From an uncultured Oscillospiraceae bacterium (GTDB lineage: Bacteria; Bacillota; Clostridia; Oscillospirales; Ruminococcaceae), in assembly GCA_900548355.1 (NCBI GenBank), contig URKR01000019.1:1-36898 (forward strand): a stretch of 36,898 nucleotides of DNA, read 5' to 3'. Positions 270 to 23,717 of the stretch are shown one piece after another. The translations under genes were made by a program, and so were the position numbers. The notes under the pieces are model-generated. The model worked only from the letters and a program-made list of their open reading frames with translations, had not been told where the DNA came from and searched no databases. Position 1 is the stretch's first letter, and each line of letters starts with the position of its first letter.

Positions 270-1280
270 TTACCGGGCTTTCCCTTTTCCCAGGCTTGCC
301 GCCCAGGTCGCAAATTTTGGCCCGGCAGTGCGCAGAAGCAGCTGGTAGGCGCGCCAGCTGCGCTGTTCGCGCACCTCTTTGCCATAAGGGTACAGCCCGC
401 GCAGCGCGCGCAGGCCGGGCAGGCAGGCGGCGCGCAGGGCTTGATCCGGCACGGCGGCCGTGCGGGCCTGCGGCCAGAACACATCGGCCACGGCGTCCCG
501 CGCGGCGGCAAAGGCAGCGGCATCCAGCGCGCCTGTCTCCCGCATCGCTTCGACATGCCGCCAGGTGGCCGCGATCGCCGTGAACCGCCGGGGCAGGTTT
601 TTCGCATCGTTGAGCAGGCTGCCGGCCCGGTTTTCGCGGTAATGGGTAAAGACCAGATCGATAAAATTCATCCGCGCCCCGGCCGCGAGCAATTCAAGAT
701 CGAAGCCGACATCCTCGGCCCAGCGCACGTCCTCCCGGAATTGCAGGCCGCGTTCTTGCAAAAATGCCCGCCGCAGGCAGTATTTCCAGACCGACCAGTG
801 CCCGGCCGCATACAGCGCCGATAACCGGGCCGCAAAGTCCCCCTCGGCCGCGCCGGGGGCAAAAACCAGCCCGGCGTGGGGTTCGAGACATCCCTCGGGC
901 AAAAGGCGCAGATACCGGCCGATGTACCAGTCAAAGCCCGGCTCTTCGGCCAGCGTCCGCCGCAGCCCTCCCAGCAGGCCGGGGGCCATGCGGTCGTCGC
1001 CGTCCAAAAACAGCACCCACTCCCCTTTGGCGGCGGCAAGCCCTGTGTTGCGCGCGGCCGAAAGCCCGCTGTTTTCGCGGTGCAACGCCCGCACGCCGGG
1101 GTTTTGGGCCGCAAGCTCATCGGCCAGCGCGCCAGTCGAATCGGTCGAGCCGTCATCAACGACCAGGCACTCCCAATCCGTCCCGCCCTGGTCCGCCACG
1201 CTCGCGACACATTCGGCAAGGTACGCTTTGACATTATAGGCCGGGACGATGACGCTGAAGGTCGGGGTTTGTTCAGCCAT
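270..1280 (-). CDS. Family 2 glycosyltransferase
   Basis: A GT-A fold GT2 transferase of about 336 residues, expected to move a nucleotide-sugar residue onto a lipid-linked glycan at the cytoplasmic membrane face. Visible motifs are VIVPAYN near residue 10, VVDDGSTD near 40-47, SGLSAARNTG near 71-80 and the metal-binding LDGDD near 92-96. The GTG at 1289 is less likely to be the start than the ATG at 1280, because GGGAGGTGA sits 5 nt before the latter. The start overlaps the end of the GT6 gene by 8 nt, so translation is probably coupled. It is the last recognisable gene of the leftward polysaccharide operon. The donor and acceptor cannot be read from the sequence. Confidence 0.9.
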   Translation of the reverse strand: MAEQTPTFSVIVPAYNVKAYLAECVASVADQGGTDWECLVVDDGSTDSTGALADELAAQNPGVRALHRENSGLSAARNTGLAAAKGEWVLFLDGDDRMAPGLLGGLRRTLAEEPGFDWYIGRYLRLLPEGCLEPHAGLVFAPGAAEGDFAARLSALYAAGHWSVWKYCLRRAFLQERGLQFREDVRWAEDVGFDLELLAAGARMNFIDLVFTHYRENRAGSLLNDAKNLPRRFTAIAATWRHVEAMRETGALDAAAFAAARDAVADVFWPQARTAAVPDQALRAACLPGLRALRGLYPYGKEVREQRSWRAYQLLLRTAGPKFATWAASLGKGKAR

Positions 1281-2169
1281 CTCCCTCACCTCCCGGGTAG
1301 TTTCCTGTTTGCCAGCCCGACGTGGCAGCCCGCGGCGTTACGCGGCGGCGCAGCAGGGTATCCCGCGCGCGCCAGAGATACGGCAGCCAGTTGAGGGTGA
1401 ACGCCTCCCACTTGCGCTCGAAAAAATTTTGCGGTTTGGGCGCCCCCTTAACCGCTTCCGCATCCAGAAAGCGGCTTTTTTGCAGCACCCGGATGCGATC
1501 GCCGCCATCGGGCAGCGGGGTTTCCTCCGGCACGCAGAAGCAGGGCGGCAGAACGCGGAACCGCCGCGGCCATTCGGCCACGAGCCGGTTGAGCTGGCTT
1601 TCATCGTGGAAGCGGGCAATGATGCCGCGATCAAGATCTTCCCGGGTGCGGGCTTGCAGTTCACGGCAAAGCGCGAGATAAGCCGCCGCCGTGCCGCCGT
1701 TGAGCCCGCCCGCCACATAATACGTTCCGCCGTTGTACGGGATGCCGGCCCAGCTGGCCGGCCGCCGCTCGTAGGGGTGGAAGAGCGGGTTTCTGCCGTC
1801 ATAGGGCAGATGGCAGACGGCGGTCAGCGATCTGCCGGCATCGGGCAGAATCTCTTCGGCGTGGACAGGGCCGGTACAGAAGAGGTTCGCGTTGGCAAAA
1901 AACAGATAGTCATACCCGGCCAGCGCCGCCTCCTGCGAGAGGAAAGCGTCAAACCGCTGCAAGGTGCTGTAGGGCCAGGGCAGGGCCTTCTGCGGGATGC
2001 GGCGCACATCGGGGTTGCCTTCCCCCGCAACCTGCGCGGCGTCGGTAAAGACAAAGAAGGTTTTATCCAGCTCCGGCAAAAAGTTTTGGCGGAAGTTTTC
2101 ATAAAACCCCGGCCAGAACACCCGGTATGAGCCGGTACAAATATAGAGAATCGCGATGGTCTTGGGCAT
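1273..2169 (-). CDS. Family 6 glycosyltransferase (ABO blood-group transferase family)
   Basis: A 298-residue protein with the hallmarks of bacterial GT6, the family of human ABO transferases: IAILYICTGSYRVFWPGFYE at 5-24, FFVFTD at 38-43, NAN at 93-95 in place of the vertebrate DXD, HPYERRPAS at 131-139, YYVAGGLNGG at 150-159 and HDES at 188-191. Known bacterial GT6 enzymes add alpha-1,3 GalNAc or Gal to Fuc-alpha-1,2-Gal and are metal-independent with NXN. The AGG tripeptide at 153-155 matches my recollection of Bacteroides ovatus BoGT6a (GalNAc type). Gly at the position of human residue 268 also points to GalNAc rather than Gal, but this is inference. A good Shine-Dalgarno (AAAGGAG) precedes the ATG. 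A fucosyltransferase lies one gene upstream, separated by the flippase. Confidence 0.9.
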   Translation of the reverse strand: MPKTIAILYICTGSYRVFWPGFYENFRQNFLPELDKTFFVFTDAAQVAGEGNPDVRRIPQKALPWPYSTLQRFDAFLSQEAALAGYDYLFFANANLFCTGPVHAEEILPDAGRSLTAVCHLPYDGRNPLFHPYERRPASWAGIPYNGGTYYVAGGLNGGTAAAYLALCRELQARTREDLDRGIIARFHDESQLNRLVAEWPRRFRVLPPCFCVPEETPLPDGGDRIRVLQKSRFLDAEAVKGAPKPQNFFERKWEAFTLNWLPYLWRARDTLLRRRVTPRAATSGWQTGNYPGGEGDG

Positions 2170-2236
2170 GGGAAGCCTCTCCTTTCGATAGCGCAGCGCA
2201 GTCCGCCAAATCTTACCTCTGAACGCTTTCCGGCAT

Positions 2237-3769
2237 TCAGCTTTTCCTCACCCTTGCCAAAACCTTCCCCGCCGCGCGCTTTGCGGTGCCGCGCAGGTAG
2301 GCGGCGTCGGCTGTCCAGGCATAAAAGAGCAGGTTCAAAAGGTTTGGCACCACGGCGACAACCGCCGCCCGGCCGAACAGCCAGATCCAGCCGCCCGGCA
2401 GCAGCGCGCAGACCCAGGCCGTGCCGCCCATGCACAGCGCAAGGGTGACAAGATGCGCCAGCTGTACCCGGACATAATGCCCAAGGAAACCTTTCACATA
2501 CTGTTTGCAGACCACCCGCACCCGGCCGAACCACATGATGCAGTGGGCCACGACGGTGGCGAAGGTTGCGCCGGCAATGCCGAACGGCACAAACAGCGCA
2601 AAGCTGAGCAGAAGGTTCACCGCAGCCGAAGCCACCATGAACCACTGGTCCTGCTCAAAATGGCCGAGCACCGCGCGGTAGCTGCCCAGCATCCGGTGGT
2701 TCCAGCCGACATATTCGTTGAGGCAGAACAGGAGCAAAAACGCCAGCGGCAGCAGCCGGTCCGCCCCCATCCAGAGGGTCATAAAGGGTTGGAACAGGCA
2801 AAAATACGCCGTGGCGACAAAACTTCCGAAGAGATAGCTGAACAGGTCAAGCCCCCAGAACACTTCCTTGTCATGGGCGTTTTCACCGGCCGCCTTGTCA
2901 TAGACGATGTTGCCGATGCCGGACGAAAAACTGTCCATAATCTTGTTGCCGATGTTGGTGACGCTGTCTGAAATTGAAGAATAGTTGCCAAGGTTGGTCG
3001 TCAGCGTCGCGCCGCCCATGCGGGAGGTCACGATCGTATCCGAGGAGCCGTAGATCGTGTTCGAGATGCGGTGGACAAGATAGTACCGCAGATCGTGGAA
3101 AATGCCGAGACTGCGGAAATCGTCGAGGGTGACCCTGACATCTTTCACAAAGGGGAAATCTTTGCGGAAGCGGCGGGCCACGACGAGGTTCGCGCAGGTG
3201 TTGAATACGATTGTGATGCCGAAATACAGCACATAGTCCGGCCACCAGAGCGAGATCGCGATGCGCGCCAGATAGGTCGCGACATTAAAACAGAAATCGA
3301 TCCGGGTACACAGATACCCTTGCTGGGTGCAGGTGTACATGAGCCGCCTTGTCACGAGGAAATAGCTCGAGAGCGTCGAGAGGGCGTTGAGGCCGTAGAC
3401 GGTATAGGCTGCCTGCATATCGGCCCCCGGCATGATCCAGGGCAGCAGGGCCGCGCCGGCAAGCGCGAGCAGGCAGATCAGCAGCCCGACCGCGCGGTAG
3501 GCCCACTTATACATCGACATATACAGGCTGATCTTTTCTTCGTCCTTCGCCGCGATCTGCTCGTACAATCGGTAGCTGATGACGCTGCCGACGCCGAACT
3601 CGGCAATCGAGAAGAAGTTGAAGAGTTTTTCGACGACGCCGGTCGCCTGGGCGATGCCGTCGCCAAAGTTGGTGACGAGCAGCCGCCGGGTGGCCAGGCC
3701 GAGCAGCAGCAACAGCAAGCTGGTGCCCAGCGTGTAGGCCATATTGATGAGGGTGCGTTTGGTTCTCAT
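2237..3769 (-). CDS. Wzx-type polysaccharide flippase (MOP superfamily)
   Basis: A 510-residue, strongly hydrophobic protein with about 12-14 predicted membrane helices. The N-terminal segment (GLATRRLLVTNFGDG, then FNFFSIAEFGVGSVISYRLY) is typical of Wzx flippases that turn undecaprenyl-linked repeat units across the cytoplasmic membrane. The central RISNTIYGSSDTIV region fits the second half of this fold. The longest frame starts 40 codons further upstream, but that part overlaps the preceding gene and looks like translated noise. The ATG at 3769 has AAAGG upstream and begins MRTKRTLINM. The gene sits between the GT11 and GT6 genes. Its presence implies a Wzx/Wzy-type polymer, although no Wzy is visible in the window. 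Confidence 0.9.
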   Translation of the reverse strand: MRTKRTLINMAYTLGTSLLLLLLGLATRRLLVTNFGDGIAQATGVVEKLFNFFSIAEFGVGSVISYRLYEQIAAKDEEKISLYMSMYKWAYRAVGLLICLLALAGAALLPWIMPGADMQAAYTVYGLNALSTLSSYFLVTRRLMYTCTQQGYLCTRIDFCFNVATYLARIAISLWWPDYVLYFGITIVFNTCANLVVARRFRKDFPFVKDVRVTLDDFRSLGIFHDLRYYLVHRISNTIYGSSDTIVTSRMGGATLTTNLGNYSSISDSVTNIGNKIMDSFSSGIGNIVYDKAAGENAHDKEVFWGLDLFSYLFGSFVATAYFCLFQPFMTLWMGADRLLPLAFLLLFCLNEYVGWNHRMLGSYRAVLGHFEQDQWFMVASAAVNLLLSFALFVPFGIAGATFATVVAHCIMWFGRVRVVCKQYVKGFLGHYVRVQLAHLVTLALCMGGTAWVCALLPGGWIWLFGRAAVVAVVPNLLNLLFYAWTADAAYLRGTAKRAAGKVLARVRKS

Positions 3770-3779
3770 GGGTATGCCT

Positions 3780-4709
3780 TTATGGGTGTGTTTGGATTGC
3801 GATACGCCGCCAGCCGGGCAGGTAGAGGTCGCTGCGCTTGGTGTGGGCGTACCAGCGTTCGGGCGCCCAGACAATCTTGTCCGGCGCATCGGCCAGGTAC
3901 TGCGCCCACCAGCTATAGGTGGAGTTGCTCAGCACAAAGCCGCGGCAGCGCTGCATGAGCGCAAGGTCGTTTGCCGCCGCGCCCTGCGGCAGTATGGTGG
4001 CCGGCAGGCCGGCCGTGGGCAGGTGTTCGCGCGCCCAGGGCTCGTCGTCGGTAAAGACAAAGAGCTCGGCCTCCGGTTTGGCGGCGGCGACGGCGGCGAC
4101 GGCGGCGGCGTAATACTCCGGCGTGCAGACCTGCAGAATCTCGTTTTCGGGCTTGAGGTAATCCCCGCGGCGCAGGTGTACGGCCACCGGCCAGCGCGCC
4201 GCTGCAATCGCCGCGGCAAAGGGGCCGGCTGGCGGTGTTTTGGCGCGCAGCTCGCGGCAGATCGTACCGGCTGCATCGGCGAAGTACCGCTCGCTCTGGA
4301 AGTAGCCCCAAGCCAGAAAATCCCGACTGGGGCCGCGGCGGGCCGGGGTGTAGCCGTCGGTGGCAAAATGCAGGCCGATCATATTGAGCAGCGGGGCCAT
4401 GCGGCGCTCAAACGGCTGCCAGTCGCGCGCCAGCAGGCCGCGGCGCTGCTCGTACTTAATCATCAGCGCCTTGGCGGCGTTTTGGCGGGGCAGGTGGGTT
4501 TTGGCGAACTGCGGCTCGCTCAAGATCCGCACCCCGGGGCTGATGGCCAGCGCTTCAAGCGCACAGGCCGTGTGGGCGGGTGCGCCGTCGCGCCAGTCCT
4601 GCCGGTCAAGCAGGGTGACCCCCTCGCCGCATCGCAAACCGAGCGCGCGGGCAAATGCATAGACAAACATCTGGTTGCCAAGGCCGCCGGCCAGTTCCGC
4701 ATAGATCAT
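3780..4709 (-). CDS. Family 11 glycosyltransferase, probable alpha-1,2-fucosyltransferase
   Basis: A 309-residue protein with GT11 signatures: GGLGNQMFVYAFARAL at 8-23, the GDP-fucose binding HLRRGDY at 178-184, FVFTDDE at 218-223, and SNSTYSWWAQYL at 261-272. The family transfers L-fucose from GDP-fucose to the 2-position of galactose. No GDP-fucose synthesis genes (gmd, fcl) are present in the window. The start overlaps the upstream GT4 stop by 4 nt (ATGA coupling), and the flippase follows 10 nt after its stop. Residues 201-210 are an alanine-rich run encoded by a GCC/GGC-type triplet stretch at about 4081-4112, which looks like a low-complexity insertion in a surface loop. Confidence 0.9.
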   Translation of the reverse strand: MIYAELAGGLGNQMFVYAFARALGLRCGEGVTLLDRQDWRDGAPAHTACALEALAISPGVRILSEPQFAKTHLPRQNAAKALMIKYEQRRGLLARDWQPFERRMAPLLNMIGLHFATDGYTPARRGPSRDFLAWGYFQSERYFADAAGTICRELRAKTPPAGPFAAAIAAARWPVAVHLRRGDYLKPENEILQVCTPEYYAAAVAAVAAAKPEAELFVFTDDEPWAREHLPTAGLPATILPQGAAANDLALMQRCRGFVLSNSTYSWWAQYLADAPDKIVWAPERWYAHTKRSDLYLPGWRRIAIQTHP

Positions 4710-5812
4710 CGCGCACCTGCCAATTCGTCGTAGAGGCGCTCCATCCGCCGCGCCGCTGTCGCCAGCTCATACCCGGCCGCGGCCAGCTGGGGCCAGTGGT
4801 CGGCATGGGGGCCGGCCGAAGCGATCGACGCGGCTTTGTCCGCCCATGTACCAAACGGCGCGTCAAGCGGCAGAAAATGCACGAGTTCGGTCACCGCGCC
4901 GTCGTTCGGCACATTGGTCGAAGCCAGGCAGGGCGTGCCGCAGCCCTGCGCTTCGACCAAAGTAACCGGGCTGCCCTCAAAGTTGCTCGGCAGCAAAAAC
5001 AGGTCGAAGGCGTTCATATAGGCCGGCACATCGGTCTGCACGCCGGCAAAGAGCACCCGGTTTTGCAAACCGTGGGCCGCGACGGCGGCGCGAATCTCGC
5101 CTTCCATCTCGCCGTCGCCGACGAGCAGCAGCTTCCAGGCCGGGTTTTTGGCCGCGAGCGCGGCGAAGATTTCGATCAAAAACAGCGGGTTTTTCTGGTG
5201 GTTGAGCCGGCCGACAAACCCGGCGAGCTTTTCCTCCTCCCCAATGCCGTACTGCGCGCGGATGCGGGCGCGGGCCGCGGCGTCGGGGTGAAAGCGGTTC
5301 TGATCGACCGCGTTGCAGGCAACCGCAAAGTTCGGCTTTTGATCGATACGATCGCCAAACACAAACCGCCCGGCCGCCACCCCGCAGCCGAGGAAATAAT
5401 CGGCCGTGTGCTGGTAGATCAGGTGCGCCGCCCGCCAGGCCAGCGTGACCGGCGGGTAGACGATATGGCTGTGGACGATGAGCTTGGCCCGCGGGCACTG
5501 CGCCCGCATGGCAACACAGGCCAGCGCGCCGATCTTGCTGGCCGTGTGGTAGTGGATGATGTCATAGTCCTTGTGTTCACGCAGGTGGCGGCGCAGCGCG
5601 CGGGCGCGGTCGCGCTTGTTATCCGGCACCGCAAAGATCCGCACGCCGGCGGCCTCAAGCGCCGGGGCGCTGGAAGCCTGGCCGGGCGGGCAGGCCCCGA
5701 CAAAGAGATCTACGGGATAGCGCGAGAGATCCATCCGCAGCAGCAGGTTCTGCACATACCGCTGCACCCCGCTCTGCACGCCGAGATGGTTGCCGATCAT
5801 CAGAATTTTCAT
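4706..5812 (-). CDS. Family 4 glycosyltransferase (GT-B)
   Basis: A 368-residue GT-B enzyme with a retaining GT4 C-terminal half. It begins MKILMIGNHLGVQSGVQRYV, a form typical of EpsF-like exopolysaccharide transferases. NFAVACNAVD lies at 161-170, GFVGRLNHQKNPLFLI at 198-213, LLLVGDGE at 228-235 and the EX7E catalytic pair at E279/E287 within LLPSNFEGSPVTLVEAQGCG. Such enzymes add hexoses or N-acetylhexosamines to lipid-linked intermediates on the cytoplasmic side. AAGGAAG precedes the ATG. It follows the methyltransferase-like gene by 9 nt and is coupled to the GT11 gene by a 4-nt overlap. Confidence 0.92.
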   Translation of the reverse strand: MKILMIGNHLGVQSGVQRYVQNLLLRMDLSRYPVDLFVGACPPGQASSAPALEAAGVRIFAVPDNKRDRARALRRHLREHKDYDIIHYHTASKIGALACVAMRAQCPRAKLIVHSHIVYPPVTLAWRAAHLIYQHTADYFLGCGVAAGRFVFGDRIDQKPNFAVACNAVDQNRFHPDAAARARIRAQYGIGEEEKLAGFVGRLNHQKNPLFLIEIFAALAAKNPAWKLLLVGDGEMEGEIRAAVAAHGLQNRVLFAGVQTDVPAYMNAFDLFLLPSNFEGSPVTLVEAQGCGTPCLASTNVPNDGAVTELVHFLPLDAPFGTWADKAASIASAGPHADHWPQLAAAGYELATAARRMERLYDELAGAR

Positions 5813-5821: not shown

Positions 5822-6499
5822 TTACTTGATGAGATCGACCACGAGCGACAGCGCGCGGTAGGGGTTCTGCACGCGGGGGTCGTGGTCGGGCGTGCGGTCG
5901 ATGTAGCCGAGGGTATAATCGATCGGTTCGGTGACCGACTTTCCTTCCGGCGTGTAGTAGTGGTAGAAGCGGGCCGAAGCAAACGGGCTGCCCTCGGCCA
6001 GGGCCTTGACCTGCTCATAGGTCGGGAACCAGAGGTGCGCCCCGCCGCCGAGCTTGCCGTCCTTATACCAGCCGCCGCCGTCCGGGTCAAAGACGATCGC
6101 GCCGGCCGCGTCCCGCTGGCAGCGGTTTGCGTAGACATCGCACCGGTAATCCGGCACCGAGATCCGCATCCGCGCGCCGGGCTTGAGGATGCGGTGCACC
6201 TCGGCCAGCACGGCGGGCAATGCTTCGTACGGGATATGCTCGAGCACGTCCTCGGCCTGGAAGAAATCGATGGTGTTATCTTCGAGCGGGAAAGGCTTTG
6301 TGATATCGTGCTTGATCGTGTTCCAATCAGCCTGCTTGATCGAAAGGCCGATGAAGCCCTCGTTTTCATAGAGGGGTTTCGACGGTATATCCCCCGCGTA
6401 GAGCCGCAGCACGTTGAAGGAAGCCGCCTCCGCAAAGGTCATCTTGTGGAACAGGGTATCCCCCAGCTTCCACAGTCGTTTTCTCCATGTCAGTTCCAT
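5822..6499 (-). CDS. Class I SAM methyltransferase-like protein
   Basis: A 225-residue protein resembling Methyltransf_11-type enzymes of capsule clusters. HDITKPFPLEDNTIDFFQAE (64-83), then DVLEHI and LAEVHRILKPGARMRISVPD (98-117), correspond to the acidic loop and post-motif region of the Rossmann methyltransferase fold. The C-terminus TPDHDPRVQNPYRALSLVVD is also seen in such proteins. Unusually, motif I is not a clear GxGxG: the equivalent segment reads FNVLRLYAGD (28-37). Either S-adenosylmethionine binding is altered or the protein is a methyltransferase-like accessory factor. It lies inside the glycosyltransferase operon, so a sugar or lipid-linked sugar is the likely target. Confidence 0.7.
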   Translation of the reverse strand: MELTWRKRLWKLGDTLFHKMTFAEAASFNVLRLYAGDIPSKPLYENEGFIGLSIKQADWNTIKHDITKPFPLEDNTIDFFQAEDVLEHIPYEALPAVLAEVHRILKPGARMRISVPDYRCDVYANRCQRDAAGAIVFDPDGGGWYKDGKLGGGAHLWFPTYEQVKALAEGSPFASARFYHYYTPEGKSVTEPIDYTLGYIDRTPDHDPRVQNPYRALSLVVDLIK

Positions 6500-6558: not shown

Positions 6559-7467
6559 TTACCAGTAGCTGCCGCCCTCGACGACTTCGCGGTTCGCGAT
6601 GCCCTCGTTTTCGGCCGGGCGCACCCAGGCGTCGTTATAGAGCCGGCTGATCTGGGGGTGGGTGTCCCACCGCTTGCCGCGGATGCCGAACAGCAGCTGG
6701 GTTGCGCCGCTCATCTGGATCGCCGCATGGCCGGTATCCCGCGCATGGATCGCAAGCGGCATGCTGTAGGCCCCGGCCCCGGTGATCGCGACGTCGTAGT
6801 CGACGGCATCCATCTGACTTTCCATCGCCTCGAGCGCGTCGAACCAGGAGGCATAGCCGGTTTCCTGCCCGGCCAGGCCCTGCACGGCGCGGATGACGGT
6901 CAGCGAGGCAAACTCCGGCAGGATATCGGTGCCGGGGAACAGCTGCTCCCGCCGGGCGTACTGGCGCAGGATCGTATCCTTGAACGGATGCACGACGAGC
7001 ACCCGCTTGCCGGCGAGCGCCGCGCTCCAGGGGCGGGGGTGGTAGTAGGGTTCGAGCGCGCGCAGCTTGGCAAAAAGGGTTCCCTTGCAGCCGGCGATGA
7101 CCTCCCGCTCGGCCCCGACATCCCAGAGCGCAAGCAGGTCGATCTTCTGCACGCAGTCTGTGTAGAGCGTGCAGAAGCGGTTCAGCGTTTCGTCGTCGGT
7201 CGGGAATACGCCGGACAGATTGCGGATATCGGCCCGCACCGCGTCGCGGTAGGTTTGGCCGCCGGTGCGTCGGTATTCGGCGATCGTGCGCATCTCGGTG
7301 GCGCCGCAGCGGCCCATGCAGAAGATGCGCCCTTCACGCAGCCAGTCGCCAATGAGGTTGTTGCCGGCTTCGGCCGAAAGGATCGGCACGCCGCGGTATT
7401 TCCAGCGGAACAGCCCGCCTTTGACGATGTTGCGGGCAACTTCCTTCCATTTGGCGTCGTTATCCAT
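6559..7467 (-). CDS. Conserved protein of polysaccharide clusters, function unrecognised
   Basis: A soluble-looking 302-residue protein with no signal peptide or membrane helix. Near residues 49-60 it has FCMGRCGATEM, which weakly recalls the N-terminal arginine-glycine-acid motif of GT-D (DUF1792) glycosyltransferases. The later segments AGKRVLVVHPFKDTIL and VDYDVAITGAGAYSMPLAIH have alternating beta-alpha character, as in a nucleotide-binding fold. The last third, SGATQLLFGIRGKRW, looks conserved. The start has GGGGTGA upstream, and the gene overlaps the upstream GT4 stop by 8 nt. Context makes a glycan-modifying or glycosyl-transfer role plausible, but no function can be assigned. Confidence 0.7.
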   Translation of the reverse strand: MDNDAKWKEVARNIVKGGLFRWKYRGVPILSAEAGNNLIGDWLREGRIFCMGRCGATEMRTIAEYRRTGGQTYRDAVRADIRNLSGVFPTDDETLNRFCTLYTDCVQKIDLLALWDVGAEREVIAGCKGTLFAKLRALEPYYHPRPWSAALAGKRVLVVHPFKDTILRQYARREQLFPGTDILPEFASLTVIRAVQGLAGQETGYASWFDALEAMESQMDAVDYDVAITGAGAYSMPLAIHARDTGHAAIQMSGATQLLFGIRGKRWDTHPQISRLYNDAWVRPAENEGIANREVVEGGSYW

Positions 7468-8596
7468 CGCGGTTCACCCCTTTCGTTTGCAGCATGGCCA
7501 GCGCGGTTTCGGCGCTGTTGCGCCAGAGGAATTTGGAACGGATGCGGGCCTTGGCGGCATCCGCCATCGCGGGGGCTTCGGCCGCTTTGCGCACGGCCTT
7601 AGCCAGCGCCGCGGTATCCCCCGCGCCGGGTTCGACCAGAAAGCCGCTGACCCCGTCCTCCACAATCATATCCGGCCCCGGCGCGCACCGCGCCACCGGC
7701 ACGCAGCCCGCGTACATCGCTTCGAGCAAACTCATGCCGAAGATTTCGCGGTCGTTGCAGTTGAGAAAGACGTCGCAGGCGTGGTAGTAGGCCTGCACTT
7801 CGGCGTTCGGCAGCTGCGGAATCTGCCGCCAGCGGTCCTGCAGGCCGCTTTCCTGCATCGCGTCGGCCAGCGCGCCGGCAAGGCTCCCCTGCCCGATCAC
7901 GACGGCCTGCCAGGTTTCCGGCAGGGCGGCGAGCACGGCCGCAACGTCGAGCGGGCGCTTGTAGGGGTCAAGCCGGCCGACGAACAAAAGATAGTTCGCG
8001 TTTTCATCCAGGCCCAGCCGCCGGCGCAGCGCCGCGCGGGGCTCGGAAATTTCGGGGATGATCGCGGTATCGAGCCCCACCGGCAGCACGCCGGCGCAGG
8101 GCACGCGCAAAGCTTCGAGCTCGTCTGCGACGGCCTGCGTCTTGGCATAGGTCGGGGTGCGGCGGTAGATCGCAAGGTTGCGCCGGCAGAACAGATCCAT
8201 GACCCGGCGCACGGCCGGGTTCTGCGACTGCGAGGCCAGCGCGCCGAGCTGGCTGTAAAAGAAGATGCCGTGCGCGCGGCAGAACCGGTAGAGCCCCGGC
8301 ACCGCGAGGGAGTTATCCCCCATGACGTGGACCGCGTCAACCTTTTCGTCAAGCAGCGGCTGCCAGCTTTTGTAAAAAGCGTTGACGCCGAGGGTTTTGG
8401 CCGGGCAGTAGAGCACCTTGACCTTCTCGGCCGGGGTTTCGACCTCGATTTTATCCGCGCCCGGCGCGGGGTAGAGCACGACAGCCCTGGCCCCCAGCGC
8501 CGCAAACGCCCGCGCCAGGCCAACTTCCTGCCGGTTGTAGGCCCCGCGTTGGCCGGATGCCCCGCAGTAGAGCTGCGGGATCGCGATGGTCAGCAT
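7460..8596 (-). CDS. Family 4 glycosyltransferase (GT-B)
   Basis: A 378-residue GT4 enzyme. The N-terminal Rossmann half begins MLTIAIPQLYCGASGQ. The C-terminal donor-binding half carries LLFVGRLDPYKRPLDV, VVIGQGSL and the EX7E motif in REIFGMSLLEAMYAGCVP. It should act on nucleotide-sugar donors at the cytoplasmic face of the membrane, with unknown specificity. A near-perfect Shine-Dalgarno AAGGAGG lies 6 nt before the ATG, one of the strongest in the cluster. It follows the beta-propeller gene by 11 nt and overlaps the downstream conserved gene by 8 nt. Confidence 0.92.
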   Translation of the reverse strand: MLTIAIPQLYCGASGQRGAYNRQEVGLARAFAALGARAVVLYPAPGADKIEVETPAEKVKVLYCPAKTLGVNAFYKSWQPLLDEKVDAVHVMGDNSLAVPGLYRFCRAHGIFFYSQLGALASQSQNPAVRRVMDLFCRRNLAIYRRTPTYAKTQAVADELEALRVPCAGVLPVGLDTAIIPEISEPRAALRRRLGLDENANYLLFVGRLDPYKRPLDVAAVLAALPETWQAVVIGQGSLAGALADAMQESGLQDRWRQIPQLPNAEVQAYYHACDVFLNCNDREIFGMSLLEAMYAGCVPVARCAPGPDMIVEDGVSGFLVEPGAGDTAALAKAVRKAAEAPAMADAAKARIRSKFLWRNSAETALAMLQTKGVNRDG

Positions 8597-8607: not shown

Positions 8608-9573
8608 TCAGCGGGTTGCAGGCGGCGGAAGCTGGGCCAAATACCGCGCGTCAATGACCTCAAAGGCTTCGTCCCGGCAGTAGGTGTGGATGCCGATGAT
8701 CCGCGCGGGGTCAAGGCCGGTGATCGTGACGTTCTGCGGCATCGCAGCGCACAGCGGGGTTTCCCGCATCGCGTCGGGGTGGTCGGGGTCGGGGTGGGTC
8801 GTAAAAAATTGCAGATAGACGCCGTAATCCACCTTGGTGCTGACCTGGGCCGGGCGCAGCCGCCCGCCGCCCCAGGAAAACAGCGGCCCTGCGTTGCGCG
8901 CGCCGAGGTCATAACCCCGGTGGGCGAGGTTGAAGGGCTCGTCCTCCTCGATGGTGAAGCCGCCTTCGGCCGATGCATCCGCCCGCAGCGTATAGCGGCG
9001 GTAGCGGGTGAAAAGGCCATTTTCAGGGCGCACCTCGCTGCAAAGCAGGGTCAGGGCCTCGGGGGTTTGATCCAGCAGGATTGTATCGGCCAGCTCTTTC
9101 CCGACCGGGAAGGCCTTGGCCAGTTTCCACTCTTCCGGAAACCAATCACAGCGGTAAAGCCGCAGGCTGCGGTCGGCCCCGGTTTCGGGGATCATCCAGG
9201 TTTCGCCGTTCCAGTCAAAGACGGTCGGGAAGGAAAGGTGGAAATCCTCGGCGAGCACCGTCTCGATCGGGCCGGCATGGCCGGCGTCGTCGAGGGTGAA
9301 GGCCGCGATTGCGCCTTTGTTCGCCGCGAGGTCAAAATCTTCGCAGAAGATCCAGCGCTGCCCGTTTTTGTGGAAGAGCAGCGGGTCGGCGTACCAGTGG
9401 CCGGGCGCGGTGAACATCATAGTATACGCCCCCTCGCCCAAAGCCGGCAGCGGTTCGCAGCCCTCGGCGGTCGGGCGCGGGCGGACAGCGATGGTATAAA
9501 CTTCCTTCCAGCCGGTCAGCTTTTTGAAAAGCCTGCCCGGCGGCATATGCAGCGCGCGGTAAAGTTGGTTCAT
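8608..9573 (-). CDS. Beta-propeller protein related to the N-terminal domain of GINT1-type glycosyltransferases
   Basis: A 321-residue protein made of short repeated beta blades. Diagnostic segments are GHWYADPLLFHKNGQRWIFC at about 58-77, EDFHLSFPTVFDWNGETWMI at about 108-127 followed by PETGADRSLRLYRCDWFP, and a late NAGPLFSWGGGRLRPAQ. These match the five-bladed domain that, as I recall, precedes the transferase domain of plant glucosamine inositolphosphorylceramide transferase 1 and that also stands alone in bacterial polysaccharide loci. It has no catalytic transferase domain, signal peptide or membrane helix, so it may bind glycan or assist a partner GT. The ATG follows CAGGTG. A structured 140-nt repeat lies immediately upstream. 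Confidence 0.75.
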   Translation of the reverse strand: MNQLYRALHMPPGRLFKKLTGWKEVYTIAVRPRPTAEGCEPLPALGEGAYTMMFTAPGHWYADPLLFHKNGQRWIFCEDFDLAANKGAIAAFTLDDAGHAGPIETVLAEDFHLSFPTVFDWNGETWMIPETGADRSLRLYRCDWFPEEWKLAKAFPVGKELADTILLDQTPEALTLLCSEVRPENGLFTRYRRYTLRADASAEGGFTIEEDEPFNLAHRGYDLGARNAGPLFSWGGGRLRPAQVSTKVDYGVYLQFFTTHPDPDHPDAMRETPLCAAMPQNVTITGLDPARIIGIHTYCRDEAFEVIDARYLAQLPPPATR

Positions 9574-9590: not shown

Positions 9591-9730
9591 TAGTTTAGAT
9601 TTTAGAGTTTAGAGTTAAGATGCGGTGTTCCGCGCTGCGCGCTCGAAAAAACGGCCTGCGGTTTCTCCCGCATTTTCTAAAACGCGCCGAAGGCGCACCA
9701 TATCTAAACTCTTAACTCTCAACTCTTTAC
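9591..9730. repeat. Structured intergenic repeat (MITE-like) between two operon genes
   Basis: The outer arms AGAGTTTAGAGTTAAGA (9604-9620) and the reverse complement of 9710-9726 pair at 16 of 17 positions. Inside lie a second pair ATGCGG/CCGCAT (9620-9625 with 9668-9673) and a small hairpin GCGCC-gaa-GGCGC (9684-9696). The ends are AT-rich TTAAGAGTT-type tandem motifs and the core is GC-rich, unlike adjacent coding DNA. It has no open frame. The right arm supplies the last codons and stop of the preceding GT4 gene. It could be a small non-autonomous mobile element or an RNA-folding spacer within the operon. Confidence 0.6.
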
Positions 9731-10936
9731 TAAAATATCCTGATAAATCTCCGCCAGTTCGCGGTAATTTTCCTCCTGCCCAAACCGCCCCACGGCTTCG
9801 GCGCGGATGGCGGCGGGGTCGGCTTTGGCTTCAAGGTCTGGCAGGCGGCGCACCGCATTGGCGAGGGCTTCGGGGTCGCCGGGGGCGAACCGCAGCCCGT
9901 CAACGCCTTCGCGCACCATTGCGCCGACATTGCCAAGGTCGCTCGCAATCACCGGCGTGCCCATCGCGTGGGCCTCGGCCGGCACAAGGGCGAAACTCTC
10001 GTAACAAAGGCTCGGGGCCAGGGCGGCCCGGCTTTCGGCCAGCAGCGCGCAGAGCGCTTCGTGGGAAATCTGGCCGAGGAACTCGACATTTTCCCCCGCG
10101 TTCTCCCGCGCCCAGCCCTCGAGCGGGCCGGCCCCGCAGAGGAGCAGCTTCGGCGCGGCAGGGTCATTTTCCAATAACCGCCAGGCTTCGATCGCGGTGC
10201 GCAGGCCCTTGAGTTCCTCAAGCCGGCCGGCAAAGACGACCTGATTTTTGCGCGCCGCCAGCGGCCGCAGCGGCGGCAGCGCGCCTTCGGGCACGGCGGC
10301 GTTCGGGCGCAGGTAGAGTTTTGCCGGATCAAACACCGGGTGCCGCGCGTTAAATTCAAGCAGCTTTTCTTTGTCAAATTCAGTCAGCGCAATCAGATGC
10401 ACCCGCTTGTAGGTGCCGAGCAGCCGGTGAAACGCATAGAGAAACGCGCAGACCGCGCTCTGCACGCGGCTGCCGCGGTAGCAGCCGTGGCGCACGGCGT
10501 TGAACAGCCCGCCCTTTTGGCGCGGGCAGTCCTCGCAGACTTTGCCCTCCCGCAGCAGCACGCCATTTGGGCAGAAGAGCCGGAAGTTGTGCAGCGTCTG
10601 CACGGCCGGCACACCGGCCGCCCGCGCGGCCCAGAACACCGACGGGCTGACCGCAAACAGCGTGTTGTGGACATGGACGATCTCGATCTTCTCGCGCCGG
10701 ATCAGCGCTTTGACCTCGCGGCAGGTCTTGAGGCTGAACACCGCCCGCAGCGGCAGCAGCAGTTTGGCCGCAAGGCCGCCCTCATCGTTGCTGCGCTCGT
10801 AGGTCACAACCCGGTGGCCGTGCGCTTCAAGCATCGCGCGGTCGGCGGCAAAGACGGCGTCCTCGCCGCCGGGCAGCCGGTACCGGCAGTGCACGAGCAG
10901 CACGGCCGGCCGCGCTTCACGCCCCGCGCTGTTCAT
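9719..10936 (-). CDS. Family 4 glycosyltransferase with Cys-rich loop
   Basis: A GT4 enzyme of about 405 residues. The N-terminal half has VLLVHCRYRLPGGEDAVF and VHVHNTLFAVSPSVFWAARA, followed by TLHNFRLFCPNG and a cysteine-rich loop (CEDCPRQKGG then GCYRGS) characteristic of one GT4 subgroup. The C-terminal half has VVFAGRLEELKGL, LLLCGAGPL and EX7E in CYESFALVPAEAHAMG. The longest frame begins 10 codons earlier, but the ATG at 10936 (MNSAGREARPAVL) fits the fold better. It overlaps the upstream asparagine-synthase gene by 20 nt and has only a weak Shine-Dalgarno, so translation is probably coupled. Its final Lys-Ser-stop lies inside the repeat at 9591-9730. Confidence 0.9.
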   Translation of the reverse strand: MNSAGREARPAVLLVHCRYRLPGGEDAVFAADRAMLEAHGHRVVTYERSNDEGGLAAKLLLPLRAVFSLKTCREVKALIRREKIEIVHVHNTLFAVSPSVFWAARAAGVPAVQTLHNFRLFCPNGVLLREGKVCEDCPRQKGGLFNAVRHGCYRGSRVQSAVCAFLYAFHRLLGTYKRVHLIALTEFDKEKLLEFNARHPVFDPAKLYLRPNAAVPEGALPPLRPLAARKNQVVFAGRLEELKGLRTAIEAWRLLENDPAAPKLLLCGAGPLEGWARENAGENVEFLGQISHEALCALLAESRAALAPSLCYESFALVPAEAHAMGTPVIASDLGNVGAMVREGVDGLRFAPGDPEALANAVRRLPDLEAKADPAAIRAEAVGRFGQEENYRELAEIYQDILVKS

Positions 10937-12806
10937 ACACACCGGCCGGCGGGGCCTCGTTGACAAAGTAGAGTTCGTACCAGAGGATGAAGGAATAGAT
11001 GCTCCAGATCTTGGTCATGTTTTTGGCGCGGCCGGCCTTGTGGTCGTCGAGCAGGCGCAGGATCGCCTCGGTGTTAAAGAAGCGCTCGGCCACAGGGCCT
11101 GCGAATTTCTCCCGCACCATCGCGTAGTATTTATCCTGCCGCAGCCAGTCGTTGAGCGGCACCGGGAAGCCGAGCTTGCGCCGCTTGGCAACGCTTTCGG
11201 GCAGCTGGCGCAGCGCGGCGGCGCGCAGGGCAATCTTGGTATGCTCCTCGTCGCAGCGGTAGCGCCGCGGGATCGAGAGCGCGAGCTCGAGCATTTCGCG
11301 GTCAAGGAAGGGCACCCGCAGTTCGAGCGAGTTCGCCATGCTCATGCGGTCGGCCTTGAGCAGAATGTCGTAGAGCATCCAGGTATGCATATCCACCCAC
11401 TGCAAAGCGGTCGGCTCGTCGAGGTCGGCGACGGTATCAAAATAGGGCTTGAAGAAGGTTTCGGGCGGCGGGTTGCCGTAGTCGGTTTTGAGGTACTGGT
11501 CGCGGTCGGCCGGCGATTCAAAGACATAGTTCGCCCGCATATACCGCTGCCAGGGTTCCATGCCGCCGCGCACAAGGAAGTGCTTGCCCTTGAAGTAGGG
11601 CGCGCGCCGCGCCGTGCCGGCCAGAAACCGCCGCACGGCCGCCGGGACTTTGCGGGCATAGTTTTCAAAGTGGACGGCCTGGCAGTACATCGGGTAGCCG
11701 CCGAAAAGTTCGTCCGCCCCCTCGCCAGAAAGCACGACCTTGACATACTTGCGCGCGTTTTGGGCCAGGTAATAGAGCGGCACCTCGGCCGGGTTCGGCA
11801 TCGGTTCGTCGAGATACCACTGGATGACCCGGTTGGCCTCAAAGAATTCGTCGGCCGTGACGGTGTTCGCGATGCTCGGCACCCCGATCTCCTTGCTGAA
11901 TTCCTGGGCGTAGGGCAGTTCGGAATACTTTTCCTCGGCATAGCCGACCGAGAAGCTCTTGACGTGCGGGGTGCCCTTGGCGACCTCATTGACGACAAAG
12001 CTCGAATCGACGCCGGAGGAGAGGAAGCAGCCGACCTCGACGTCGGCGATCTGGTGGGCCGCGACACTCTCCGAGAAGGTCTTGGTGATCGCATCCTCCC
12101 ACTCTTCGAGGGTTTTTGATTCGTCGATGTGGTAGCGGATGTCGTAGTAGCGGTCGATCTTCATCTCGCCGTCGTGCCAGGTGAAGCGGTGCGCGCCGGG
12201 CAGCTTGTAAACGTTTTCGAACATCGTCTCGGCATTCGGGATATACTCGATGCTCAGATATTCGGGCAGGCGGCGTTCGTTGAGGGATTTGTGGAAACCC
12301 GGGTGGGCCAAAAAGCTCTTGATCTCGCTGCCAAACAGAAACAGCCCATCGACGTTATAATAGTAAAACGGCTTGATGCCGAAGATGTCCCGCGCGCCGA
12401 AGAGGGTTTTGGCGCTGCGGTCCCAGATGACAAAAGTGAACATCCCGCGCAGCCGGGCCGGCAGGGAGTCGCCCCATTCCTCGTAACCGTGCAGCAGGAC
12501 TTCGGTATCCGACTGGGTGGCAAAGGTATGCCCGGCCGCCAGCAGTTCGGCGCGCAGGTCCTGGTAGTTGTAGATTTCGCCGTTGTAAATGACGACAAGG
12601 TTGCCGTCCTCGTTGTACATCGGCTGGCTGCCGCCTTCAAGGTCGATGATCGAAAGCCGGCGGTGGCCCAGCGCGACCTGATCGTCAACAAAATAGCCCT
12701 CGCCGTCGGGGCCGCGGTAGGCAATCAGGTCGGCCATCTTTTTTACAATGGCACGGGCCTCGTCAGCCTGGTGGCTGCGTTCGGCAAAGCCGGTGATCCC
12801 ACACAT
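10917..12806 (-). CDS. asnB: Asparagine synthase (glutamine-hydrolysing) family protein, copy 1
   Basis: A 629-residue class II amidotransferase. The N-terminal nucleophile Cys2 follows the initiator Met (MCGITGFAER), and the glutaminase domain has RRLSIIDLEGG, YNGEIYN at 74-80 and the SDTEVLLHGYEEWG motif. The synthetase domain has the pyrophosphate loop SGVDSS at 264-269 and LSGEGADELFGGYP. The family converts Asp to Asn with ATP and glutamine, but several members (AsnH, AsnB1) instead amidate carboxylates in peptidoglycan precursors. Position next to an ATP-grasp ligase and opposite a second copy plus a MurE homologue favours the latter, as inference. GGGGAGGG lies before the ATG, and the N-terminal cysteine fixes the start. 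Confidence 0.9.
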   Translation of the reverse strand: MCGITGFAERSHQADEARAIVKKMADLIAYRGPDGEGYFVDDQVALGHRRLSIIDLEGGSQPMYNEDGNLVVIYNGEIYNYQDLRAELLAAGHTFATQSDTEVLLHGYEEWGDSLPARLRGMFTFVIWDRSAKTLFGARDIFGIKPFYYYNVDGLFLFGSEIKSFLAHPGFHKSLNERRLPEYLSIEYIPNAETMFENVYKLPGAHRFTWHDGEMKIDRYYDIRYHIDESKTLEEWEDAITKTFSESVAAHQIADVEVGCFLSSGVDSSFVVNEVAKGTPHVKSFSVGYAEEKYSELPYAQEFSKEIGVPSIANTVTADEFFEANRVIQWYLDEPMPNPAEVPLYYLAQNARKYVKVVLSGEGADELFGGYPMYCQAVHFENYARKVPAAVRRFLAGTARRAPYFKGKHFLVRGGMEPWQRYMRANYVFESPADRDQYLKTDYGNPPPETFFKPYFDTVADLDEPTALQWVDMHTWMLYDILLKADRMSMANSLELRVPFLDREMLELALSIPRRYRCDEEHTKIALRAAALRQLPESVAKRRKLGFPVPLNDWLRQDKYYAMVREKFAGPVAERFFNTEAILRLLDDHKAGRAKNMTKIWSIYSFILWYELYFVNEAPPAGVYEQRGA

Positions 12807-12832
12807 GGGCGTTCCCTCCCCTGTAAATAATT

Positions 12833-12849
12833 CTCTTAAGTGTTAAGAG
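12833..12849. repeat. Short palindrome in the asnB leader, fragment of a TTAAGAG-type repeat
   Basis: A perfect inverted repeat CTCTTAA-gtg-TTAAGAG occupies most of the 66-nt gap between the ATP-grasp stop and the first asnB start. It is followed by a GAGAGTTTGG motif resembling the ends of the repeat at 9591-9730. It has no T-run, so it is unlikely to be a terminator. It may be a remnant of the same element. Confidence 0.4.
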
Positions 12850-12872
12850 CCGAGAGTTTGGATTAAGCCAAA

Positions 12873-14102
12873 TCAGTCCCGCAGGCTCTTGTTGCCGTAG
12901 TAGCGGGCGGTTTTGCGGTAATAGTTGAGCTGGCTGCGCCAATACCATAGCCGGCGGCGCCAGTTGGCGTCCTCTTTGCAGAAGAGCTGGTGCGCGCAGC
13001 GGCCCTGCTTTTTGAGCCGGGCGGCCGTGCGGCGCAAATCTTCATCCTGTACATAGCGGCGCAGCACGCCGTAGGGCGCGATCATCCAAAGGCTCTCGGC
13101 GTCGGCGACGGTGCAGCCGGCCGCTTCGTGTTCAAGAACATCCGCCACGAGATATTCCGCGAGGTTATACCCCGCCGCCGTGACGTAATAACTCGAGCGG
13201 CCCTGGCGTGGGTTCATCTCAAACAGCTTGTAGGCCCCGGTGCGCGGGTCGCGCTTCATATCAAAGTTGGCAAAACCAACCCAGTGCATATCCTCCAAAA
13301 AGGCGCGCAGCTTGCCGAGCAGCGCAGCGTCGTTGACCTCCGGCCCGGTCAAGATCCCCGCATAGTTGCCGATGCCCTCGGGGGTCTGTTCCTCCAGCAG
13401 CGGCCGGCCGAGCGCGAGCAGCCGAACTTTGCCGTCCAGCCCACAGTAGGCGTTGAGCACCCGCATACAGCCGTCATCGCCGGGGATGTACTCCTGCAAA
13501 ATCAGGTCGTCCTGGTATTCGCTGCCATAAATCGCCGTGGTGATCGCATCAAAATCCTCGCGGTTTTGGGCCAGGAACACCTTTTTCTTGTGCGGGAAAT
13601 GGCAGTTCCAGTAGGCCATCGAGTTGCTCGGCTTGATGATAACCGGGAAATCGAACGGGAGTTCGGCGGTCTTATAATTCTGCGCCGTGCAGGTCGCGGT
13701 GCGCGGATGGTCAAGTCCGTAGGCGTCGCAGGCGCGGTAGAAGTTATCCTTGATGTCAAGCGTGAGCACCGTATCAAGGTCGGGGCAGGCAAAACGGAAG
13801 TATGGCGCAAGGGCCTCGCGGTGGCGGGCCAGCAGGATTGTGTAGCCATCCGCGCAGGAGACAAGCACAAGCGGGGTGCCGGCGTGGGCCTTCGCATAGT
13901 CGAGCAGGGTCGCGACGAAGACCTCGTCCTCCTCGAGCTTCGGCTCAACTTTGGCGATGCGCACAAGCTTTGTGTTGCGGCAGGCGACAAGCACCGCCTT
14001 GCAGATCACATCGCTGACGACGCCGTAGGCTGTATAAAAGCTGCGGGCCATGCCATAGACGTTGGCATCGCTGCCGAGCAGCACGGGTTGAAAGTTTTGC
14101 AT
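12873..14102 (-). CDS. ATP-grasp carboxylate-amine ligase, Aslfm-like (candidate D-aspartate ligase)
   Basis: A 409-residue ATP-grasp enzyme. The N-terminal pre-ATP domain opens FQPVLLGSDANVYGMARSF (4-22), a form I associate with the D-aspartate ligase (Aslfm/AslA) family that attaches D-Asp to the Lys side chain of peptidoglycan precursors. ATP-grasp features are FPVIIKPS (152-159), the acidic hinge LQEYIPGDD (202-210), NFDMKRD (279-285) and FEMNPRQGRSS (294-304), the last providing the metal ligands. The ATG at 14102 has GGGGAGG 5 nt upstream and is preferred to the frame beginning 13 codons earlier. It is first in the leftward operon, directly behind the strong promoter at 14162-14190. Exact substrates are inferred; any ATP-dependent amide-bond ligase role would fit the motifs. 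Confidence 0.75.
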   Translation of the reverse strand: MQNFQPVLLGSDANVYGMARSFYTAYGVVSDVICKAVLVACRNTKLVRIAKVEPKLEEDEVFVATLLDYAKAHAGTPLVLVSCADGYTILLARHREALAPYFRFACPDLDTVLTLDIKDNFYRACDAYGLDHPRTATCTAQNYKTAELPFDFPVIIKPSNSMAYWNCHFPHKKKVFLAQNREDFDAITTAIYGSEYQDDLILQEYIPGDDGCMRVLNAYCGLDGKVRLLALGRPLLEEQTPEGIGNYAGILTGPEVNDAALLGKLRAFLEDMHWVGFANFDMKRDPRTGAYKLFEMNPRQGRSSYYVTAAGYNLAEYLVADVLEHEAAGCTVADAESLWMIAPYGVLRRYVQDEDLRRTAARLKKQGRCAHQLFCKEDANWRRRLWYWRSQLNYYRKTARYYGNKSLRD

Positions 14103-14161
14103 GCAAACCTCCCCGCTTCCGGGTGAATGGCGATCCACCATAGAAAGCTATATTCCTTAGT

Positions 14162-14190
14162 ATTTTACTTCCAACCGGCCGCGCTGTCAA
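14162..14190 (-). promoter_or_regulatory. Strong sigma-A promoter of the leftward polysaccharide operon
   Basis: On the minus strand TTGACA (14185-14190, perfect consensus) is followed after 17 nt by TAAAAT (14162-14167, 5 of 6). Transcription would begin near 14155 and run about 50 nt before the ATG at 14102. No other convincing promoter or terminator was seen before 270, so up to 12 genes may be read from here. Confidence 0.7.
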
Positions 14191-14252
14191 TCTCAGGCGC
14201 CGTATAAGCGCGGCTTGCGGGCGCATTCGAACGGAATTTACAATCTACGCCC

Positions 14253-14281
14253 TTTTCAACACGGGGGGAAATGTGTATAAT
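14253..14281 (+). promoter_or_regulatory. Probable promoter of asnB copy 2 and the MurE-like gene
   Basis: TATAAT (14276-14281) is preceded at 17 nt by TTTTCA (14253-14258), a weak -35. The start codon at 14327 lies about 45 nt downstream. It diverges from the promoter at 14162-14190, with about 62 nt between the two -35 boxes, leaving room for shared regulation. Confidence 0.5.
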
Positions 14282-14326
14282 AAAGGCAATCACAAAGTCA
14301 CAAACAAATCACGGAAAGGAATTCCT

Positions 14327-22444: not shown

Positions 22445-22456
22445 CGCGATCCCCCC

Positions 22457-23254: not shown

Positions 23255-23278
23255 TGTTCTCTCCTGTTTCGGATGGCG

Positions 23279-23701
23279 TCAGTGCTCTTCCTGGCGGACC
23301 AGGGCTTCGAAAGCATCAAAATCGCGGATATATTCGCTCTCATCGTAATGCTCGCTCGCCAAACAGAGCAGCACCGAATCGGGGCTGAAATCGTACATTT
23401 CCTTCCAGGCCATGGTCGGGATGTACACGCCGGTGCGCGGGCGGTTCAAACAGAAAACCGCCTCGTTGCCAAGGCCATCCTTGACCCGGATCTTGCTTTG
23501 GCCCGCAACATTGATGAGCACGAACTGGCTTTTGCGGTTGGCATGCTGGCCGCGGACGATATCCGGGTCAGAGCCGTAGATGTAAAACACGCGCTGGATC
23601 GCGAACGGCACATCCCGCTCGCCCTCAACAACGACAAGGTTGCCGCGCTCGTCGCCGTGTTCGGCAAACTCAATAAAATACGCGCTGTCAATTTTGTTCA
23701 T
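23279..23701 (-). CDS. FdtA/QdtA-family sugar 3,4-ketoisomerase (cupin, WxcM-like)
   Basis: A 140-residue cupin. The family isomerises dTDP-4-keto-6-deoxyglucose to the 3-keto form, the substrate for a 3-aminotransferase. Recognisable parts are DERGNLVVVEG (17-27), VPFAIQRVFYIYG (31-43), RGQHANRKSQFVLINVAG (50-67) and YIPTMAWKEMYDFSPDSVLL (93-112). The catalytic His is H53. The second active-site His of FdtA is replaced by Asn55, which alters or weakens the standard mechanism. The ATG at 23701 has AGAGGA upstream; the 21 further codons of the longer frame overlap the aminotransferase and are rejected. Pairing with the DegT aminotransferase 16 nt upstream supports a Fuc3N/Qui3N-type sugar. Confidence 0.85.
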   Translation of the reverse strand: MNKIDSAYFIEFAEHGDERGNLVVVEGERDVPFAIQRVFYIYGSDPDIVRGQHANRKSQFVLINVAGQSKIRVKDGLGNEAVFCLNRPRTGVYIPTMAWKEMYDFSPDSVLLCLASEHYDESEYIRDFDAFEALVRQEEH

Positions 23702-23717
23702 AATTTTCCTCTTCGTA

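Follow-up and report, generated by a model that had tools for sequence, protein, structure and literature searches.

The window analysed here, the whole 36,898-nucleotide stretch of contig URKR01000019.1 from an uncultured Oscillospiraceae bacterium (assembly GCA_900548355.1), carries three consecutive intact genes on its minus strand, which are predicted to encode a fucosyltransferase of glycosyltransferase family 11 (GT11; positions 3780-4709, 309 amino acids), a Wzx-type oligosaccharide flippase (2237-3769, 510 amino acids) and a family 6 glycosyltransferase (GT6; 1273-2169, 298 amino acids) homologous to the human ABO blood-group enzymes. Comparison with related loci of the genus Gemmiger suggests that GT6 has almost certainly been exchanged between versions by recombination on a conserved backbone, since the diverged GT6 stretch sits in an otherwise similar backbone. 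The product of GT6 is plausibly an A-like determinant, N-acetylgalactosamine (GalNAc) on Fuc-Gal, a reading to which a probability of about 0.5 is given from sequence and modelled structure.

The GT6 enzyme and its linkage to GT11

A sequence-only reading of this DNA had assigned the enzyme to GT6 by its NAN, YERR and HDES landmarks, and the assignment holds. The gene matches PF03414 in Pfam at 1.3e-13 (50.8 bits, exceeding the cut-off of 25), and NAN at residues 93-95, YERR from Y133, AGG at 153-155 and HDES at 188-191 all align with BoGT6a of Bacteroides ovatus. BoGT6a is also the best sequence match in the Protein Data Bank (PDB; 4ayj, 7.1e-41), with 41% identity over 213 columns. A comparison of a predicted structure with BoGT6a, suggested by the same reading, points the same way: the AlphaFold2 model (predicted local distance difference test score, pLDDT, 88.4), made from an alignment of 30 of the 120 matches listed plus the window protein, has BoGT6a with UDP-GalNAc (4cj8) as its best Foldseek match, at a template-modelling (TM) score of 0.90 of the target, and the mammalian enzymes rank behind it. 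BoGT6a is metal-independent, carries Asn95-Ala-Asn97 and transfers GalNAc to 2'-fucosyllactose, as described in PMC3961637. The window NAN aligns with this Asn-Ala-Asn, so that NXN replaces DXD, and the catalytic Glu and A155-G156-G157 (BoGT6a numbering) are retained; NXN, AGGL, the catalytic Glu and the fold are therefore common to both enzymes. The human A and B enzymes (GTA and GTB) belong to the same family and fold, and which sugar comes last is decided by the variant at a single locus, but the human enzymes use DXD and a metal where the window enzyme has NXN. On sequence and modelled fold, the window GT6 is thus an ABO homologue of the BoGT6a-type NXN kind, predicted to be metal-free. 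The database name 'family 6 glucosyltransferase' has already been given to one Gemmiger protein (P0101).

The earlier description of GT11 and GT6 on either side of a flippase gene was also borne out, with intact open reading frames (ORFs) and confirmed coordinates, and the order GT11, flippase, GT6 recurs in 26 of 28 Gemmiger-clade GT6 loci. In L009 the contig stops inside the flippase gene, and in L020 the 782 bases before GT6 hold no flippase. L020 is for that reason regarded as a different place from the main locus, and its interpretation as a contig-cut copy was rejected. This copy (L020:774-1592) is an SGGL-type GT6 away from the GT11/flippase locus in the same metagenome-assembled genome (MAG) as L006, and represents a second site or a binning error. 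The gene arrangement is not the chance of one genome. GT6 is present in 29/35 Gemmiger genus genomes and GT11 in 30/35; each of the 29 genomes with GT6 has a single GT11 match, one genome has GT11 without GT6, and five have neither (one-sided Fisher 1.8e-5). In an even sample of 148 genomes across the family, GT6 was found in two, both Gemmiger.

The closest named proteins and closest loci to the window are those of Gemmiger/Subdoligranulum. The window recA has long matches of 78-85% DNA identity in most of the 35 Gemmiger genomes, and some match in 34 of them (just 28 bases in G005 and G034, and none in G007); the best, at 85%, is to G003, the genome of L001, a locus that shares the order GT11-Wzx-GT6-GT2 with the window. 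Eight Gemmiger genomes (L126-L133) that carry the GT11-linked GT6 also have a second type (YVCGG[IV]NGG), located next to Wzm/Wzt and GT2 genes; FdtA is matched at five of these eight loci.

Apparent exchange of the GT6 gene between loci

By motif and tree the Gemmiger-clade GT6 enzymes form three groups, AGGL (the window and L001-L008, with EGG in L008), AGGF (L009-L013) and SGGL (15 loci). Mean identity is 51% between AGGL and SGGL (range 42-56), 52% between AGGL and AGGF and 55% between AGGF and SGGL; since AGGF is as far from AGGL as SGGL is, three groups are recognised and a division into two classes was rejected. SGGL sits on one side of a branch with 100/99 support in the GT6 tree, and at positions 122-124, 134 and 189 AGGL has H-L-P, P and F, in contrast to Q-P-G, S or T, and W in SGGL.

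Trees were made from the window and 26 of the 28 loci, L009 and L020 being omitted as their fetched DNA holds no GT11/GT4a, and L008 was scored as A-type in the backbone test because it falls within that clade. On the backbone tree of GT4a, GT11 and flippase, six changes between A and S types are needed, at least four of them forced by well-supported branches, and SGGL is rejected as a single clade (approximately unbiased, AU, test, p 0.00056); the possibility that GT6 type merely tracks backbone phylogeny was rejected on these grounds. Reciprocally, the GT6 data reject two clades of the backbone tree, the backbone group of the window (p 0.0045) and L002 with its sister L026 (p 4e-11); the groups in these two of the three AU tests were picked after the backbone tree was seen.

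Individual pairs of loci illustrate the same pattern in both directions. L002 (ATCC 27749) and L026 (MCC627) share five neighbouring proteins at 81-93% identity, with GT6 at 52%, whereas in L006 and L007, from two Gemmiger species, the neighbours are 64-83% identical and GT6 97%. In the latter pair the DNA of L006:9633-12780 and its counterpart in L007 is 91-100% identical per 150 columns, starting at the end of the flippase gene and continuing past GT6, and the five upstream proteins reach just 64-83%; judged by its sequence, this stretch is a recent transfer. In the closest pairs, the backbone on which AGGL and SGGL alternate is 80-93% identical.

The edges of the exchanged segment were located by a breakpoint scan of L004 against L014, L021 and L022, in which DNA identity was scored per 150 columns. 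Along the flippase gene identity stays at 77-93%; it drops to 48-69% no more than one step from the GT6 start and is back to 73-82% about 2.2 kb further on, inside the next gene, with one step just past GT6 (73-83%) interrupting the diverged stretch. This next gene encodes a polytopic membrane protein with no significant Pfam family, which looks GT-C-like. Within the window's backbone group its type matches that of GT6 in 11 of the 13 loci judged, being A-like in L002-L005 and L135 and S-like in L014, L017, L021, L022, L026 and L134, where L004 and L014 are themselves the reference sequences. The exceptions are L006 and L007, in which an AGGL GT6 is followed by an S-like gene, and by which the proposal that the two genes always move together was rejected. 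In L024 the downstream gene is ambiguous (51% to A, 46% to S; GT6 of SGGL type). L001 and L008 show no such membrane gene, and in the window GT6 is followed by a GT2 gene.

It could be argued that metagenome binning or long branches merely mimic a replacement, and that GT6 is simply a fast-evolving gene. The majority of loci are indeed from MAGs, the Gemmiger stercoravium MAG has both an AGGL locus (L006) and, elsewhere, the SGGL GT6 of a small contig (L020), long branches occur in several rows, and there is the choice of groups in two of the three AU tests. Nevertheless, both types occur in isolate records, AGGL in ATCC 27749 and An723 and SGGL in DSM 109015 and MCC627 (with AGGF in An812), and also in two genomes represented by contigs of 3.0 and 3.2 Mb, which carry SGGL (L134) and AGG (L135), respectively. 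In addition, the contrast of 81-93% with 52% in L002/L026 is reversed in L006/L007, identity falls within a single 150-column step of the GT6 start, and the AU tests reject agreement of the trees both ways, leaving an artefact highly improbable. Four GT6 proteins (P0056, P0058, P0059 and P0062) combine an SGGL front half (99-100%) with an A-type back half (80-99%), and may be natural recombinants or metagenome/assembly chimaeras. The pattern as a whole resembles, by analogy, an ABO-style polymorphism in a commensal.

The proposed cap and its alternatives

The module is proposed to cap a surface glycan that a Gemmiger-type gut bacterium exports through Wzx. A lipid-linked oligosaccharide would be assembled by the operon's GT4 and GT2 enzymes, GT11 would move fucose from GDP-fucose to galactose to give an H-like Fuc-alpha-1,2-Gal end, GT6 would then attach an alpha-1,3-linked sugar, most likely GalNAc, to give an A-like determinant, and Wzx would flip the finished unit. 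Fucosylation by GT11 followed by GT6, in that order, is considered probable. GT6 is almost certainly an exchangeable allele, AGGL or SGGL, on the conserved backbone, and as recombination swaps it, strains whose glycans are otherwise alike may end them with different sugars, a functional difference that we infer. The proposal draws on sequence and structure (the enzyme families, the GT6 fold, the catalytic residues and the donor tripeptide), on gene order and linkage across the genus, and on the GDP-fucose pathway of relatives; from these we infer the acceptor, the linkage, the order of steps and surface display.

For the donor sugar, the sequence-only reading had taken AGG at 153-155 to argue for GalNAc, and further comparison is in keeping with this. 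AGGL is present in BoGT6a (4ayj) and also in PDB entry 2vxl, entitled 'Screening a Limited Structure-based Library Identifies UDP-GalNAc-Specific Mutants of alpha-1,3 Galactosyltransferase', and the shared motif supports GalNAc; for that study the comparison covers 2vxl. Moreover, Gly268 in GTA and Ala268 in GTB separate the human enzymes (PMC4202792), and the equivalent position is Gly in 29/29 Gemmiger-clade GT6s counted, the window included, with the GTB-type Ala in 0/29. A division of SGGL and AGGL into Gal and GalNAc enzymes is accordingly unsupported; both keep this Gly and both may use GalNAc.

The GT11 assignment, made earlier from the HxRRGD motif, is upheld by a match to PF01531 over the cut-off (2.9e-24) and by HLRRGDY, the window's form of that family motif, and the relatives P0148 and P0171 are named alpha-1,2-fucosyltransferase. 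Its AlphaFold2 model, from 18 of the 120 matches listed plus the window protein, has a pLDDT of 90.3. The membrane protein between the two transferases is a putative Wzx-type flippase, a label resting on its hydropathy (eight strongly hydrophobic 19-residue windows) and on two relatives with telling names among the 120 matches listed, 'oligosaccharide flippase family protein' (P0331) and 'polysaccharide biosynthesis C-terminal domain-containing protein' (P0329); it has no match in Pfam, NCBIfam or the PDB (sequence search at E<=1). The ORF extends to 3889, but among relatives the alignment consensus opens with MRTK, and the start was accordingly set at 3769.

Relatives appear equipped to supply GDP-fucose. 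gmd is above the cut-off in 15/18 GT6-bearing genomes, and across the genus it is found at E<=1e-100 in 28/35 genomes, 27 of them above the cut-off. It accompanies GT11 in 27/30 GT11-bearing genomes (one-sided Fisher 0.003), including G021, whose match is partial and under the cut-off. fcl is found at E<=1e-50 in 14/18 genomes, and adjoins gmd in G. formicilis ATCC 27749.

Several observations weigh against an A-like, fucose-based cap. Beginning with the supply, gmd was not found in three of the 30 GT11-bearing genomes (G008, G010 and G012), all of which lie behind MAG loci, and in none of the 18 genomes does fcl reach its curated cut-off of 500 bits (best score 485). The best fold matches of GT11 are the fucosyltransferases NodZ and POFUT1, both weak (TM 0.4-0.5 of the query, with high rmsd, root-mean-square deviation), and the heptosyltransferase WaaC is listed further down together with Arabidopsis FUT1; no PDB chain matches GT11 by sequence at E<=1, and the family includes an alpha-1,3-fucosyltransferase, HhFT2, as mentioned in PMC4202792. 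GT6 itself scores 218.3 bits against NCBIfam NF041524 (family 6 glucosyltransferase), under the curated cut-off of 250, and no polymerase gene was identified. In the active site, G124, T134 and W189 of BoGT6a, which we take to line the acceptor side, are replaced by P, P and F, so that H-P-G, T and W in BoGT6a contrast with H-L-P, P and F in the window. Position 124 is P in 9/9 of the window's group; position 134 is P in 9/9, yet also in 19/36 other bacterial GT6s; and position 189 is F in seven, C in one and H in one of the nine, although W189 is conserved in 33/34 other bacterial GT6s having a letter there. T134 and W189, the latter via its main chain, appear in the ligand-contact table of BoGT6a (PMC3961637). 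Because the window's group departs from BoGT6a at these three active-site positions, the acceptor is uncertain and may not be Fuc-Gal.

These substitutions favour an alternative in which a fucosylated cap is made, but GT6 adds galactose (a B-like or linear alpha-Gal end) or uses another acceptor, and the product is not A-like. GT6 enzymes are described as using either UDP-Gal or UDP-GalNAc (PMC4202792). AGGL as the motif of BoGT6a and 2vxl, and Gly in place of the GTB Ala in 29/29, make this rather unlikely, although of the alternatives it is the one to be taken most seriously.

It is also conceivable that GT6 and GT11 decorate different sugars of one repeat, non-sequentially, their shared locus reflecting one polysaccharide only. 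In some cases GT6 can do without a GT11 neighbour, as the eight second-type loci by Wzm/Wzt (L126-L133) have no GT11 match in the fetched DNA, a further point against a fucose-based cap, and L020 stands alone. This arrangement is nonetheless improbable, given the single GT11 match in each of the 29 GT6-bearing genus genomes. In more distant bacteria (Lachnospiraceae, Chitinophagaceae, Akkermansia, Patescibacteria and others), GT11 is matched in the DNA around 22/36 GT6 loci, some of these matches being partial and the count having no random-locus control, and the acceptor of BoGT6a is 2'-fucosyllactose (PMC3961637). Sequential capping to an A-like end remains the preferred reading.

Genomic setting, related systems and significance

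The three genes belong to an operon-like block on the minus strand, delimited by ORF calls and Pfam, which runs from 10966 down to 270 and comprises three GT4 genes with a GINT1_N, a GT-D-like and a methyltransferase gene among them, then GT11, the membrane protein, GT6 and GT2; in several cases neighbouring ORFs overlap by a few bases. The block, as conserved, opens with a GT4 gene (9719-10966; PF13692, 8.3e-29), followed by a GINT1_N-domain protein (8608-9573; PF24793, 1.3e-21), a second GT4 (7460-8596; PF00534, 2.4e-28) and a putative GT-D-like transferase (6559-7467), whose match to PF22882 is weak and under the cut-off (E 0.0069) and which is kept across loci. The methyltransferase (5822-6499; PF08241, 1.8e-7) occurs in only some relatives (L001, L008, L014 and L025), and a third GT4 (4706-5812; PF00534, 2.1e-27), a conserved neighbour, overlaps the GT11 start by four bases. 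The GT2 gene (270-1289; PF00535, 1.1e-35) overlaps the GT6 stop; its position after GT6 is the same in L001, whereas in most other Gemmiger loci it lies between GT11 and Wzx. Elsewhere in the window, an ATP-grasp-like gene between two asparagine-synthase-like amidotransferases (10917-16156) adjoins the glycan operon, and at 21683-24863 FdtA, a DegT aminotransferase and an ABC exporter of the Wzm/Wzt kind make up a further, separate glycan locus, which includes an amino-sugar pathway. Neither the Rfam scan nor the tRNA scan of the window gave a match.

Motif variation is wider among GT6 enzymes outside the genus. Viral GT6s on IMG/VR contigs (L065-L103) have DAD and not NAN in 34/39 and a QGC donor motif in 31/39, with L080 and L081 pairing NAN with QGC. 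In L041, L047, L050 and L056, two of them from Akkermansiaceae, NGT stands in place of NAN, and in L063 and L064 the GT6 matches are split into several pieces, possibly through pseudogenes or assembly errors.

The closest precedent for the proposed module is the E. coli O86 O-antigen, in which H-type fucosylation is followed by an alpha-1,3 cap from a GT6 enzyme (PMC4202792). The sequence-only reading had cited this system, with the GT6 enzyme WbnI and a GT11-type fucosyltransferase giving a B-like epitope; the fucosyltransferase, given there as WbnK, is named WbwK in PMC4202792. WbnI adds Gal (B type), and was set beside the window GT6 by description; one distant search of E. coli genomes for WbnI with a viral GT6 (L081) gave no match. 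Unlike Gemmiger, which is placed in the Bacillota, Helicobacter mustelae is a Gram-negative organism. Its BgtA, compared here by description, is a bacterial GT6 of A type (PMC4202792), and in the 2014 account of BoGT6a the bacterial GT6 enzymes come from Gram-negatives with one exception (PMC3961637). The human A and B enzymes are four residues apart (PMC4202792), in contrast to the 42-56% identity of AGGL and SGGL.

The enzymes are thus of known families, and GT6 with an H-type fucosyltransferase in one pathway is already known from E. coli O86. Among the open-licence PMC papers that the literature searches listed, none concerned GT6 in Gemmiger. Within the literature searched, what appears new from the sequences is a genus-wide GT6 and GT11 locus in a gut genus of the Bacillota, with an ABO homologue as the exchanged allele. 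In capsule serotype switching, one capsule glycosyltransferase allele is replaced on a conserved capsule locus. The same one-gene replacement would be seen in Gemmiger, but in this commensal genus it affects an ABO homologue.

The origin of human natural anti-A antibodies is still debated. Native A-like glycans in prokaryotes, as a source of human anti-A, had not been demonstrated according to a 2017 abstract (PMC5504323), although Helicobacter mustelae makes the A determinant according to a review (PMC4202792); a 2023 review reports Springer's A-active Gram-negative bacteria together with difficulties for a bacterial origin, among them the presence of anti-A in newborns (PMC10606600). With GT6 alongside GT11 in 29/35 genomes, Gemmiger is one possible source of such antibodies, and the question is testable, as isolates such as ATCC 27749 and DSM 109015 exist. 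ATCC 27749 and MCC627 are ready comparison strains, with similar neighbours and a different GT6. More speculatively, and with rather low confidence, long-diverged GT6 alleles recombined between species at one locus might put different terminal sugars on an otherwise constant H-type surface glycan and be maintained because host antibodies, lectins or phages select for them, as a bacterial counterpart of ABO. The exchange pattern would also parallel a blood-group polymorphism in bacteria.

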